A stretch of DNA of 64,000 nucleotides from Candidatus Aquabacterium excrementipullorum (GTDB lineage: Bacteria; Pseudomonadota; Gammaproteobacteria; Burkholderiales; Burkholderiaceae_C). Under the pieces are notes generated by a model that saw only the letters and a list, made by a program, of their open reading frames with translations, made no database searches and was not told the DNA's origin. Made by a program: the position numbers and the translations under genes. The DNA lies in contig DXIO01000109.1 of the NCBI GenBank assembly GCA_019112875.1, forward strand, positions 1 to 64,000, given 5' to 3'. Positions 24,027-34,669 of the stretch are shown here, one piece after another (position 1 is the stretch's first letter; each line of letters begins with the position of its first letter).

Positions 24027-24401
24027 ATGACCATCAAGTACACACCCGACCACGAGTGGCTCCAGATCGAAGCCGACGGCACCGCCACGGTGGGCATCAC
24101 CGAGCACGCCCAGGACGCCCTGGGTGACGTGGTCTTCGTCGACCTGCCCGCCGTGGGCACCACCTTCAACGCCAAGGACATCGCCGGCGTGGTCGAGTCC
24201 GTCAAGGCCGCCGCCGACGTCTACATGCCCCTGACCGGCGAGATCACCGAAGTCAACGAAGCCCTGCGCGACGACCCCGCCCTGGCCAACACCGACCCGC
24301 TGGGCGCCGGCTGGTTCTTCAAGGTCAAGCTGGCCAACCCGGCCGATGCCGACGCCCTGCTGGACAAGACCGGCTACGACGACTTCGTCAAGAACGCCTG
24401 A
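24027..24401 (+). CDS. gcvH: Glycine cleavage system H protein
   Basis: A lipoyl carrier of 124 residues that shuttles the aminomethyl group between GcvP and GcvT. The lipoylated lysine is Lys60 in [15 protein letters not shown]. Full length, with typical N-terminus YTPDHEWL. It is 162 bp after gcvT and 58 bp before gcvP; the AAGGATCC region precedes its ATG. Confidence 0.97.
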
Positions 24402-24459
24402 TCGATTGACGGACGCCTTTTGCGCGTCCTCCCCGTGCCCCGCCGAACAAAGCCCCGCC

Positions 24460-27369
<2,910 letters not shown>

Positions 27370-27399: not shown

Positions 27400-28278
27400 T
27401 CAATACTGCCCGCGTGTCTCGAACGCCGACATGTCTGCCGCCTGGTTCTTCACGAACGGTGTGTAGCGCGTGTCGCCATCGACGAAGCGCTTGAGCCACG
27501 CGATCGAGTACTTCGCCAGCGAGGTCTTGCACTTCTCGGCGCTGATCTGGATACCGCACAGGTGGTCGGCGCCCGCCAGTTCGATGTAGGCGCTGGGCAG
27601 CGCCGCGTTGAAGCTCTGGTAGAACGGGATCGAGTGCGTGTCGTTGGGCGCGATGTTGTCCTTCTCGTCGGCGATCACCAACGTCGGCACCTGCACCGTC
27701 GACCAGTTCTTCGTGGTGTGCCAAGGCGCCAGCGCCACAGCGGCCTTCAAGGAAGGGTTGTCACGCGAGGCGGCCAGCGTGCCGCCGCCGCCCATCGAGT
27801 GGCCCATGGCCGCCTGGCGGTTCACGTCGAGCACACCGTAGTAAGGCGTCGTCATCGTCTTGCTGAGCGACACCACCTGCTGCAGCGCCTTGCCCATCTG
27901 CGTGCCGCGCGATTCGGGCTGGTCGAACACGCTGTTGAAGTTCACGGTGACCACCACGAAGCCATGCGAGGCCACGCGCTCGGCCAGCCACTTGTAGTAG
28001 TTCTGGATGGCCAGAAAGCCCGGCGCCAGCACCACCACGCCGAACTGGCCTTCGGTGCGCACCGTGGGGTAATAGACGGTGGCCGCGCCATAGCCGCTGG
28101 GCGAGCCCACCTTCGCATTGGTCACGGCGTAAGGGCCGGCAGCCGCTTCCAGCGACTTCACGGTGGGATCGGGGCCGTGCACCTGGGCCTGTGCCAGGCC
28201 GGCAATGCAAGCCAACGCAGCCACGCTCAGCGAGCGGGCCTTGAATGCAGAACGGAGCGCAAGAGGAAAGAGCGACAT
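27400..28278 (-). CDS. Secreted alpha/beta-hydrolase, PETase/cutinase-like polyester hydrolase
   Basis: A 292-residue protein with a signal peptide cut at about residue 31 (LAQA|QVHG). Aligned by memory with Ideonella PETase it shares GPDPTVKSLEAAAGPY, GYGAATVYYPT, ASHGFVVVTV, NPSLKAA, APW and AWLKRFVDGDTRY. The triad is Ser161 (GHSMGGGG), Asp207 and His239. Oxyanion residues are Phe88 and Met162, and Trp186 matches the mobile PETase tryptophan. His160 is at the PETase Trp159 position, as in actinobacterial cutinases. The Cys203 equivalent is Asp204 and the C-terminal disulfide is absent. Instead Cys241 and Cys250 lie in a lengthened loop after His239. Secretion and fold are well supported; activity on PET is untested, and it may prefer aliphatic polyesters or other esters. 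Confidence 0.9.
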   Translation of the reverse strand: MSLFPLALRSAFKARSLSVAALACIAGLAQAQVHGPDPTVKSLEAAAGPYAVTNAKVGSPSGYGAATVYYPTVRTEGQFGVVVLAPGFLAIQNYYKWLAERVASHGFVVVTVNFNSVFDQPESRGTQMGKALQQVVSLSKTMTTPYYGVLDVNRQAAMGHSMGGGGTLAASRDNPSLKAAVALAPWHTTKNWSTVQVPTLVIADEKDNIAPNDTHSIPFYQSFNAALPSAYIELAGADHLCGIQISAEKCKTSLAKYSIAWLKRFVDGDTRYTPFVKNQAADMSAFETRGQY

Positions 28279-28423: not shown

Positions 28424-29242
28424 TCAATAGATCAACCGGTCCGGCCGGATGTCCCGCAGGATCGTCGTGGCGATCTCTTCGATCGACTTGTGCGTGGACG
28501 ACAGCCACGCGATGCCCTCGCGGCGCATCATCGATTCGGCCTGCTGCACCTCGAAGCGGCAGTTCTCGATGCTCGCGTACTTGCTGTTCGGGCGCCTCTC
28601 ATTGCGGATCTGCGACAGGCGCGCCGGATCGATCGTCAGGCCGAAGCACTTCTTTTTGAAGGGCTTGAGCATGGGCGGCAGGAAGCCGCGGTCGAAATCT
28701 TCCGGGATCAAGGGCACGTTGGCCGCTTTCACGCCGTGCTGCATCGCCAGGTAGAGCGACGTCGGCGTCTTGCCGCTGCGGCTCACGCCCACCAGCACCA
28801 CGTCGGCCACTTCCAGGTTGCGCGCGGACTGGCCGTCGTCGTGCTCCAGCGTGAAGTTGATCGCCTCGATGCGGTCGTTGTACTCGCTGTCCACCGCCAC
28901 GTCGGAGAAACGCCCCACGCGGTGATTGGACTTCATGCCCAGCTCGTGCTCCAACGGTTCGACGAAGGTCTTGATCATGTCGAAGACCTTGCCGCGGCAC
29001 GGGCGGATGATGTTGAGGATGTCCTCGTCCACCAGCGTCATGAAGACAATGGGCCGCTTGCCCTCGCGGTCGGCCACGGCGTTGATCTCGCGCACCACCT
29101 GGTAGGCCTTGTCCGCCGTGTCGATGAAGGGTCGGCGCACGTGGCGCGGCTTCACGGCGAACTGCGCCATGATGGAATTGCCGAAGGTCTCGGCGGTGAT
29201 GCCGGTGCCGTCGGAAATGAAGAAAACGCTGCAATCGGTCAT
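28424..29242 (-). CDS. ppsR: PEP synthase regulatory protein (bifunctional kinase/pyrophosphorylase, DUF299)
   Basis: Turns PEP synthase off by ADP-dependent phosphorylation of a threonine near its catalytic His, and on again by phosphate-dependent dephosphorylation. The 272-residue protein starts MTDCSVFFISDGTGITAETF and has the P-loop GVSRSGKT (residues 152-159). Its target ppsA lies about 1.4 kb away on the opposite strand, with ohr and ohrR between. The start at 29242 is set by the family N-terminus; the open upstream sequence is the palindromic repeat. Confidence 0.95.
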   Translation of the reverse strand: MTDCSVFFISDGTGITAETFGNSIMAQFAVKPRHVRRPFIDTADKAYQVVREINAVADREGKRPIVFMTLVDEDILNIIRPCRGKVFDMIKTFVEPLEHELGMKSNHRVGRFSDVAVDSEYNDRIEAINFTLEHDDGQSARNLEVADVVLVGVSRSGKTPTSLYLAMQHGVKAANVPLIPEDFDRGFLPPMLKPFKKKCFGLTIDPARLSQIRNERRPNSKYASIENCRFEVQQAESMMRREGIAWLSSTHKSIEEIATTILRDIRPDRLIY

Positions 29243-29301
29243 GGGTGACAAGGCGGCCAGCCGGCCGCATGAGCCGCGAAGGGTCGCATTGTCACCCGAG
29301 A

Positions 29302-29391
29302 CCGGGGCGGCCGGGGAAACGCAGGGCCGCCCCAATTCCCCCTCCCTTCGGGGGACGGGCTGGGCATCGCCCAACCCGGGGGGCGCAACAC
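29302..29391. repeat. Intergenic palindromic element, copy B (behind ohr)
   Basis: Related to copy A at 2325-2399 in the same orientation. Shared pieces are GGGCCGCCCCAA, a C-run/G-run palindrome, GGGCTGGGCA and a G-run followed by CAAC. As with copy A it starts right behind the stop codon of a minus-strand gene. Confidence 0.75.
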
Positions 29392-33234: not shown

Positions 33235-33287
33235 ATCGACCCTGAGTTCGGTCGATGCGGCAAATGAATGGGTGGATATGGCAAATG
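33235..33287. promoter_or_regulatory. Candidate regulatory sites upstream of the secreted lipase
   Basis: An inverted repeat ATCGACC/GGTCGAT (33235-33256, 8-base loop) is followed by two direct GGCAAATG boxes (33259-33266 and 33280-33287) exactly 21 bp apart. The spacing suits a dimeric regulator on one DNA face. The cognate protein is unknown. Confidence 0.4.
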
Positions 33288-33352
33288 CACGTGACTTTCC
33301 GTCAACTAGCATGAGGCCATCCAGCCCACATCATTCGAGGAGCGCCTCCTTC

Positions 33353-34669
33353 ATGTCCCGCATCTCACCTCTCACCACGGCCACGCTGCTGGCGATCGCA
33401 TCCCTCGCAGCCGGCGCCTCGGCCCAGGCGCAGACCACCACACCGGATCCCTTCTACCAGTACACGGGCAGCACGCCGCTGGCCGACATCGCACCTGGCA
33501 CGGTCCTCAAGACACGCACCATCTCGTACTACGTCGTCGGCATCAAGACCAGGATCCCGGCCACGCAAGTGGTGTACCGCTCGACCAATGCCCTGCTCGA
33601 GCCGGCCGCGAACGTCACCACCATCTTCACGCCCGATTGCGCCTCCGCCGACTGCACGAACAAGAACAAGGTGCTGTCCTACCAGTCGTTCTACGACTCG
33701 CTGAACCCGGAAGACGCGCCGTCGCGCGCATTCGCTGGCGGCAAGCGGATCCCTGACGTGCTGCCGGCCGTCGAGACGATTCTGTTCGGCACCTACCGCA
33801 AGAAGGGCTACACCGTCGTCATCTCCGACACCCAAGGGCAGAAAGCCGCCTTCGCGGCCGGCCCCGAGTACGGCTACAACACGCTCGATTCGATCCGCGC
33901 TGCCTTCAATACGCCGCAGATCGGCCTGGCCAAGAATGCCAAGGTAGCCCTGCTGGGCTACTCCGGCGGCGCGATCGCCACGGAATGGGCCGCCGAGCTG
34001 GCACCGACCTACGCCCCGGATCTGACGCCGAACCTGATCGGCGCCGCGTTTGGCGGCACCCTGGTGAGCCCCGAGCACAACCTCACCTACGTGGAAGGCG
34101 CCCCCATCTGGGGCGGTGTGATGCCCATGGCCGTCATCGGCGTCTCGCGCTCCTATGGCATCGACATCCAGAAGTACCTCACCCCTCGCGGCCTGGAGGT
34201 CTACGACAGGATGCAGAAGGCCTCGATCGCCTACGTGCTGGGCCAGTACAGCAAGGTGACCTGGAAGGACCTCGTCAAGCCCGAATACCAGGACCGCACC
34301 AAGATTGCCGAGTACGTCGCGGCCGTCAACAAGGTCATCATGGGCACGGGTGGCACCCCCACCATCCCGCTGCAGATCGGTCAAGGCACCGGCGGCACCC
34401 TGGAGCTCACCAAGACCTCGCCGCTCTGGGGCAAGGGCGACGGCGTGATGCTGGCCGGCGATGTGCGTACGCTCGCTCGCCAATACTGCGCCCAGGGCGT
34501 GAAGGTCGAGCACAAGGAATTCGGCACCAGCCACTTCGTGACCATGATCAGCTGGCTGCCCTGGGCAACCGACTGGATCGATGACCGATTCGCCGGCAAG
34601 GCCGCGCCTGAGAACTGCGCCAGCATCGCCCCGGGCAATTCGCTCGCGCCGCTGGTCTACGCGCCCTGA
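33353..34669 (+). CDS. Secreted lipase, LIP family (CAL-A-like alpha/beta-hydrolase)
   Basis: A 438-residue protein with a signal peptide cut at about residue 26 (ASAQA). The nucleophile is Ser204 in LLGYSGGAIATEW; His394 (TSHF) and probably Asp363 (GKGDGVM) complete a triad. The fold pattern matches the secretory lipase family known from fungi (Candida lipase A) and found in some bacteria. Four cysteines (96, 101, 377, 421) may form disulfides. It probably hydrolyses extracellular lipids or other esters. The start at 33353 is set by the signal peptide and a GAGGAG site. Confidence 0.87.
   Translation: MSRISPLTTATLLAIASLAAGASAQAQTTTPDPFYQYTGSTPLADIAPGTVLKTRTISYYVVGIKTRIPATQVVYRSTNALLEPAANVTTIFTPDCASADCTNKNKVLSYQSFYDSLNPEDAPSRAFAGGKRIPDVLPAVETILFGTYRKKGYTVVISDTQGQKAAFAAGPEYGYNTLDSIRAAFNTPQIGLAKNAKVALLGYSGGAIATEWAAELAPTYAPDLTPNLIGAAFGGTLVSPEHNLTYVEGAPIWGGVMPMAVIGVSRSYGIDIQKYLTPRGLEVYDRMQKASIAYVLGQYSKVTWKDLVKPEYQDRTKIAEYVAAVNKVIMGTGGTPTIPLQIGQGTGGTLELTKTSPLWGKGDGVMLAGDVRTLARQYCAQGVKVEHKEFGTSHFVTMISWLPWATDWIDDRFAGKAAPENCASIAPGNSLAPLVYAP

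Follow-up and report, generated by a model that had tools for sequence, protein, structure and literature searches.

We report that the window, a 64,000-nucleotide stretch of DNA from Candidatus Aquabacterium excrementipullorum, harbours a gene for a serine esterase that belongs to the PETase/bacterial cutinase family and is probably secreted. Judging from its sequence, this enzyme is part of a distinct Aquabacterium lineage and would act as a polyesterase or lipase, with aliphatic polyesters as its likely substrates.

Results

The open reading frame at 27400..28278 (minus strand) is intact, starts with ATG and encodes a protein of 292 amino acids; by inspection, the sequence AAGG is located 8 bases 5′ of the start codon. 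The Pfam PETase model (PF12740) matches residues 30-281 of this protein with 303.9 bits (E = 1.2e-90, cut-off 28), against 26.2 bits (E = 6.9e-6) for the dienelactone hydrolase model, and the PAF-acetylhydrolase and chlorophyllase models fall far below the PETase model. A generic dienelactone hydrolase, the placement that the initial annotation had opposed to its own reading, is ruled out by this difference in score. The top sequence match in the PDB is a PET hydrolase aligned over residues 32-285 (E = 2.3e-80). The similarity therefore covers the whole mature protein, as the initial annotation had claimed. The NCBIfam equivalog model for BHET hydrolases (NF051441) gives 288.4 bits, below its cut-off of 520. 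Residues 1-32 approximately (28183..28278, minus strand) correspond by inspection to a probable Sec-type signal peptide, ending near GLAQAQ, in a region where AlphaFold confidence is low. The evidence thus supports a serine hydrolase of the PETase/cutinase family that probably carries a signal peptide, in agreement with the initial annotation.

The AlphaFold model of the enzyme (65 rows) has a mean pLDDT of 89.5 and a pTM of 0.86. The 50 PDB matches listed by Foldseek are PETases or close relatives, with target-normalised TM values of 0.91-0.94 and rmsd of 1.2-1.9, and include the A. delafieldii PBS depolymerase 8c65; at the sequence level, these solved enzymes are only 43-48% identical to the window enzyme. 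The predicted fold of the hydrolase, an α/β-hydrolase fold with the GxSxG motif and Ser-Asp-His triad of the PF12740 family, closely matches those of solved PETases, and structure prediction, one of the checks proposed at the outset, agrees with the PETase-like reading.

The hydrolase gene is convergent with a gene located at 24346..27369 (plus strand), which from sequence resemblance we take to be gcvP, and its upstream neighbour at 28424..29374 (minus strand) is a PF03618 kinase/pyrophosphorylase gene, presumably ppsR. Orthologues of 79-88% identity were found in five other species, in all five flanked by gcvP and ppsR like the window gene, so that 6 of the 42 genus genomes carry the gene. 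In the host genome (4.75 Mb in 147 contigs), these housekeeping neighbours, conserved with the orthologues, point to the chromosomal location that had been proposed. Among the six orthologues, the 15 pairwise dN/dS values ranged from 0.063 to 0.217, with 0.144-0.217 in comparisons with the window gene. The hydrolase is under purifying selection.

In two species, G034 and G039, the orthologue is followed by a tandem copy that is about 55% identical (L036, 4679-5458, and L035, 4579-5358, respectively). These copies keep the catalytic triad, but Trp186 is replaced by Val and Met162 by Ala, and all mature cysteines have been lost. In G031, the gcvP-ppsR site is occupied by a decayed remnant with an internal stop (L175/L033). 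The ORF beside it presumably encodes a protein resembling spermidine-synthase-type methyltransferases, and G004 and G029 have similar ORFs in the interval between gcvP and ppsR. Among 30 ppsR loci examined, gcvP adjoins ppsR without any hydrolase gene in G015, G024, G004, G022 and G029; judged by ppsR (97-98%), the nearest relative is G015, whose genome is only 53% complete. For most of the remaining ppsR loci, gcvP was not present within the 1.5 kb flank. The hydrolase gene is thus dispensable and of patchy distribution, although inherited at a fixed site. A phage origin was rejected, as none of 89 pattern-matched viral stretches encodes a relative (tblastn), and so was a plasmid origin, the five plasmid records with a relative being all less than 60% identical (47.3% at most, in Piscinibacter gummiphilus). 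A scan for a promoter or terminator at the hydrolase gene, a weak one for which chance alone would have given none or few, found none. A second esterase-type gene, that of a PF03583 secretory lipase (E = 6e-39), is located about 5 kb from the PETase-family gene, at 33272-34669 (plus strand).

PET hydrolases have been sorted into types by their loop, disulfides and subsites (PMC5785972, PMC12442448), and the definitions used here are those given in excerpts of PMC5785972, PMC10546322 and PMC12442448. Type I enzymes have no extended β8-α6 loop, carry His where IsPETase has Trp159 and Phe/Tyr where it has Ser238 (Joo 2018, PMC5785972), and a single disulfide at a conserved C-terminal position, whereas type II enzymes have the extended loop and two conserved disulfides (PMC5785972, PMC12442448). 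Type III, represented by HaloPETase1, is described as having a GHSQG box, no aromatic clamp, and disulfides C64-C126 and C273-C276 (PMC12442448).

We aligned 150 rows, leaving out L024 (partial) and L033 (the remnant). The nucleophile Ser161 (codon 27796..27798), preceded by His160 in a GHSMG box, the triad residues Asp207 (27658..27660) and His239 (27562..27564), and Trp186 of subsite I (27721..27723), all on the minus strand, as well as Phe88, occupy the positions that the initial annotation had assigned to them. Trp186 had been read as PETase-type and Phe88 as cutinase-type. Both residues are present; however, Trp is carried by 77 of 78 actinobacterial rows, and Phe by 31 of these 78 and by the type IIa enzymes 6sbn, 7vmd and 8ais. 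Because of these counts they mark no type, and we dropped them as discriminating residues.

Subsite I (Phe88, Met162, Trp186, Ile209) is complete and identical in all six orthologues. Their subsite II is made of Leu89, Tyr94, Ala235 (Leu in one of them), Asp238, Leu240 and Ile243. Among the 13 type II rows, Tyr94 and Ile243 never occur, Leu240 occurs once (L039), Leu89 three times and Asp238 four times, and Tyr94 is found in none of the 79 type I rows (78 actinobacterial rows and 8ety). In the aligned sequences, subsite II as a combination of residues is unlike that of either type. The β8-α6 loop region (residues 240-260, 27499..27561, minus strand), counted from the residue after His239 to the residue before Trp261, includes Cys241 and Cys250 and is indeed lengthened as had been noticed: it has 21 residues in the six orthologues, compared to 16 in T. 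fusca and in 76 of 78 actinobacterial rows, and 19 in IsPETase, 6sbn (PE-H), 8ais, 7vmd (Ple628) and 7cwq (presumably BurPL). Type II enzymes differ among themselves in loop length, because L152 and L153, which are near IsPETase in the tree, have 16 residues.

Since the triad, subsite I and the predicted fold are intact, ester hydrolysis is very likely. We know of no assayed member of the Aquabacterium clade of 28 rows defined below, and the confidence that we give to the competing explanations of its substrate and origin overlaps. The enzyme could be a lipase or small-ester esterase devoid of relevant polyester activity, with a PETase label inherited from the family name. The family does hold deposited lipases, such as the S. 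exfoliatus lipase 1jfr, and it seems to be diversifying from one substrate, since genus paralogues have lost subsite I features such as Trp186 (the two tandem copies and four rows of the L011 group). We nevertheless consider this explanation rather unlikely, given that every subsite I residue is kept in the six orthologues and that an Aquabacterium PETase-like protein, Dh5, a possible member of this clade, is described as producing large clearing zones on polycaprolactone (PMC10547765). Aquabacterium has also been linked to polycaprolactone in a co-occurrence network (PMC10317964).

Somewhat less probable still is a genuine PET hydrolase, of type IIa/IIb-like character, letting the host use PET. 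Its triad and subsite I are those of IsPETase except for Phe replacing Tyr87, its loop is extended, and most of the fold matches listed are PETases; furthermore, IsPETase with the double mutation W159H/S238F (for example PDB 7osb) is reportedly active on PET. On the other hand, subsite II is replaced, with His160 for Trp159, Leu240 for Ser238 and Ile243 for Asn241. PF07519 (tannase/MHETase family) had no match in any of the four genomes tried (the host genome G000 and its relatives G025, G034 and G039), with eight matches in the positive control G133, a genome containing a sequence (L138) that we take to be IsPETase. The known route from PET to terephthalate is therefore not evident in the genomes tried, and the BHETase equivalog score of 288 bits against a cut-off of 520 also speaks against PET hydrolysis. 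In the mutagenesis results of PMC5785972, W159H and S238F sharply reduced hydrolysis of both BHET and PET by IsPETase, and activity on BHET was 8% for W159A, 18% for N241A and near wild type for S238A. Strong PET activity would thus be less likely, because His160 and Leu240 sit where W159H and S238F are harmful to IsPETase. His160 alone is no argument against it, since type I cutinases with His at the Trp159 position degrade PET (PMC5785972).

Cys241 (codon 27556..27558) and Cys250 (27529..27531), both on the minus strand, are the sole mature cysteines of the six orthologues. None of them has a cysteine beyond residue 250, the C-terminal pair being missing. Over the 150 rows, Cys241 is present in 40, of which 34 have Cys204 and the other six, the orthologues, have Cys250, a residue that is confined to them. 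No row carries Cys204, Cys241 or Cys250 without such a partner. The window enzyme has therefore lost Cys204, which lies beside the catalytic Asp and is the usual partner of Cys241, and gained Cys250 in the loop. Such a distribution is what a single partner change on one branch would leave, counting as one event and not six, and a Cys241-Cys250 bridge probably replaces the Cys204-Cys241 bridge. We tentatively suggest, holding it at a little short of an even chance, that Aquabacterium has its own structural type of PETase-family polyester hydrolase beyond types I, II and III, with a switch of the Cys241 partner and remodelled tandem copies.

The enzyme departs from type I by its loop (21 residues instead of 16) and by the absence of a C-terminal Cys pair, and only half of the type I residue pair is present, with His160 but Leu240 in place of Phe/Tyr. 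It has the extended loop of type II (two residues more than IsPETase) but not the two disulfides, Cys204 and the C-terminal pair being absent. Leu240 sets it apart from type IIa (Phe/Tyr at the Ser238 position), and His160 and Leu240 from type IIb (Trp159 and Ser238). Unlike type III, it has a GHSMG box, Phe88 and Trp186, and no mature cysteines other than 241 and 250.

A first tree was computed from 91 rows, including 19 of 76 actinobacterial rows and both T. fusca rows; L028 and L029, in which the nucleophile is missing, were left out of the trees. The six orthologues form one clade (100/98), which the two tandem copies join at 100/92. With the addition of 20 more Aquabacterium rows, a clade of 28 rows from 14 genomes is obtained (98/99). 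Support is 85/98 for the type I group and 83/87 for the type II group. In the free tree, the Aquabacterium clade joins type II at 55/91, and in AU tests, for which the groups were named once the first tree was known, neither its grouping with type I (p-AU 0.395) nor the union of types I and II (0.163) was rejected. For the second tree, both ends of the alignment were trimmed, the loop columns and those of residues 160 and 204 were removed, and twelve long-branch loci were dropped, four of them within the Aquabacterium clade. It recovered this clade (24 rows, 98/90), the orthologues (98/87) and type I (99/96), support for type II fell to only 79/50, and the grouping of orthologues with tandem copies dropped out of the starred sets. 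Again, neither the placement with type II (p-AU 0.128) nor that with type I (0.086) was rejected. The phylogenetic check thus yields an Aquabacterium clade of its own, with a position nearer to type I or type II neither shown nor rejected. The sequences support a lineage that is found only in Aquabacterium within these searches; because clade support holds and the p-AU values reject no placement, this lineage is supported and an intermediate position is not shown, a deep branching between the two types being likewise not rejected.

It is very doubtful that the window enzyme truly stands between type I and type II in evolution, as the natural intermediate imagined by the initial annotation: it does combine a type I-like His160 with a type II-like extended loop, its clade joins type II with other placements not rejected, and the Aquabacterium rows L037, L038 and L014 combine His160, a 21-residue loop, Cys204/Cys241 and two C-terminal cysteines, but the window enzyme lacks both canonical disulfide pairs, its loop exceeds those of IsPETase and of the actinobacterial rows, its subsite II matches neither type, and the p-AU values of both trees leave the branching unsettled. 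With this set of features, which includes His in the nucleophile box and the two canonical Cys pairs, L014, L037 and L038 are better candidates for a mixture of types I and II than the window gene. If anything is the intermediate, it may be the L037 group rather than the window gene.

PETase-family matches were found at E 0.001 in 29 of the 42 genus genomes, one of which (G031) has only the remnant, and at E 1e-30 in 28, with up to five matches per genome. Outside the genus, 8 genomes had a match at 1e-30 among 399 drawn from the family, and at class level two further genomes had one at 1e-25 among 369 searched. Aquabacterium thus looks unusually rich in such enzymes. The contig scan covered the best 80 of 240 relatives, and the restriction to Aquabacterium holds within these searches. 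Left out were the genus matches G013:C1:529002, G014:C106 and G002:C265, the short or weak matches G014:C79, G038:C1:3344140 and G091, and G066 (L034). The host genome contains a second family member (G000:C77), which is 47% identical and groups with type I. L028 (1210-2301) and L029 (1423-2514) are the sole PETase-family matches in G007 and G037. Their nucleophile Ser and triad His are apparently missing, so that these two species seem to have retained a dead enzyme. A second, more divergent Aquabacterium group (L025, L030-L032 and L051-L054), in which Trp precedes the nucleophile, the loop has 16 residues and the C-terminal Cys pair is absent, stands apart from types I and II in the 91-row tree (12 rows, 97/93). 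The L186 stretch, in a single guessed frame, gave no family match, to which we attach no weight. Neither the clade nor the cysteine pattern is described in the portions consulted of the literature on Aquabacterium polyesterases and cutinases and on PETase typing and sequence space, and a narrow search on disulfides gave no paper.

Discussion

We favour a polyesterase or lipase acting on aliphatic polyesters. In the corresponding mechanism, Ser161 would attack an ester bond clamped by Phe88 and Trp186, with an oxyanion hole provided by the backbone of Phe88 and Met162, and the acyl-enzyme would then be hydrolysed by water activated by His239/Asp207. With its rebuilt, more hydrophobic subsite II (Leu89, Tyr94, Leu240, Ile243) and long loop, probably pinned by the Cys241-Cys250 bridge, the enzyme would prefer chains of aliphatic polyesters or lipids to PET. 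It would work beside the type I-like paralogue of its host, providing the cell with fatty acids or with hydroxy- and dicarboxylic acids.

A lineage in which the aromatic clamp is retained and subsite II replaced would represent a natural experiment on the determinants of polymer preference and stability in PETases, of which the relocated active-site disulfide, if confirmed, would be a part. If the tandem copies have been remodelled, the loss of Trp186 in two species would show the family adapting to other substrates.

Among known systems, the window enzyme resembles IsPETase (type IIb) in its fold, triad, Met/Trp/Ile residues of subsite I, extended loop and cysteine beside the catalytic His. 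It is 44-45% identical to the wild-type IsPETase entries listed, and differs from them by four replacements (Trp159 to His, Ser238 to Leu, Asn241 to Ile and Tyr87 to Phe), by a loop two residues longer, by the absence of the C-terminal Cys pair and of a Cys203 equivalent, and by the new Cys250. With the actinobacterial type I cutinases such as that of T. fusca, it shares the fold, the GHSMG box, Trp186 and the His215/Phe219 pair (Ser214/Ile218 in IsPETase), whereas its loop is five residues longer, the C-terminal Cys pair is absent, Leu replaces Phe at the Ser238 position and Tyr94 replaces Ser. The type IIa-like enzymes PE-H (6sbn) and Ple628 (7vmd) have the extended loop, Phe88 and the cysteine next to the catalytic His in common with it; in contrast to them, it lacks Cys204 and the C-terminal Cys pair, and has His for the Trp of the nucleophile box and Leu for Tyr. 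The best sequence hits, which are also among the best fold hits, are the laboratory-made ancestral PETase reconstructions 8eu0 and 8cru. The related reconstruction 8ety has the same GHSMG box as the window enzyme, but keeps the C-terminal Cys pair and a loop of 16 residues.
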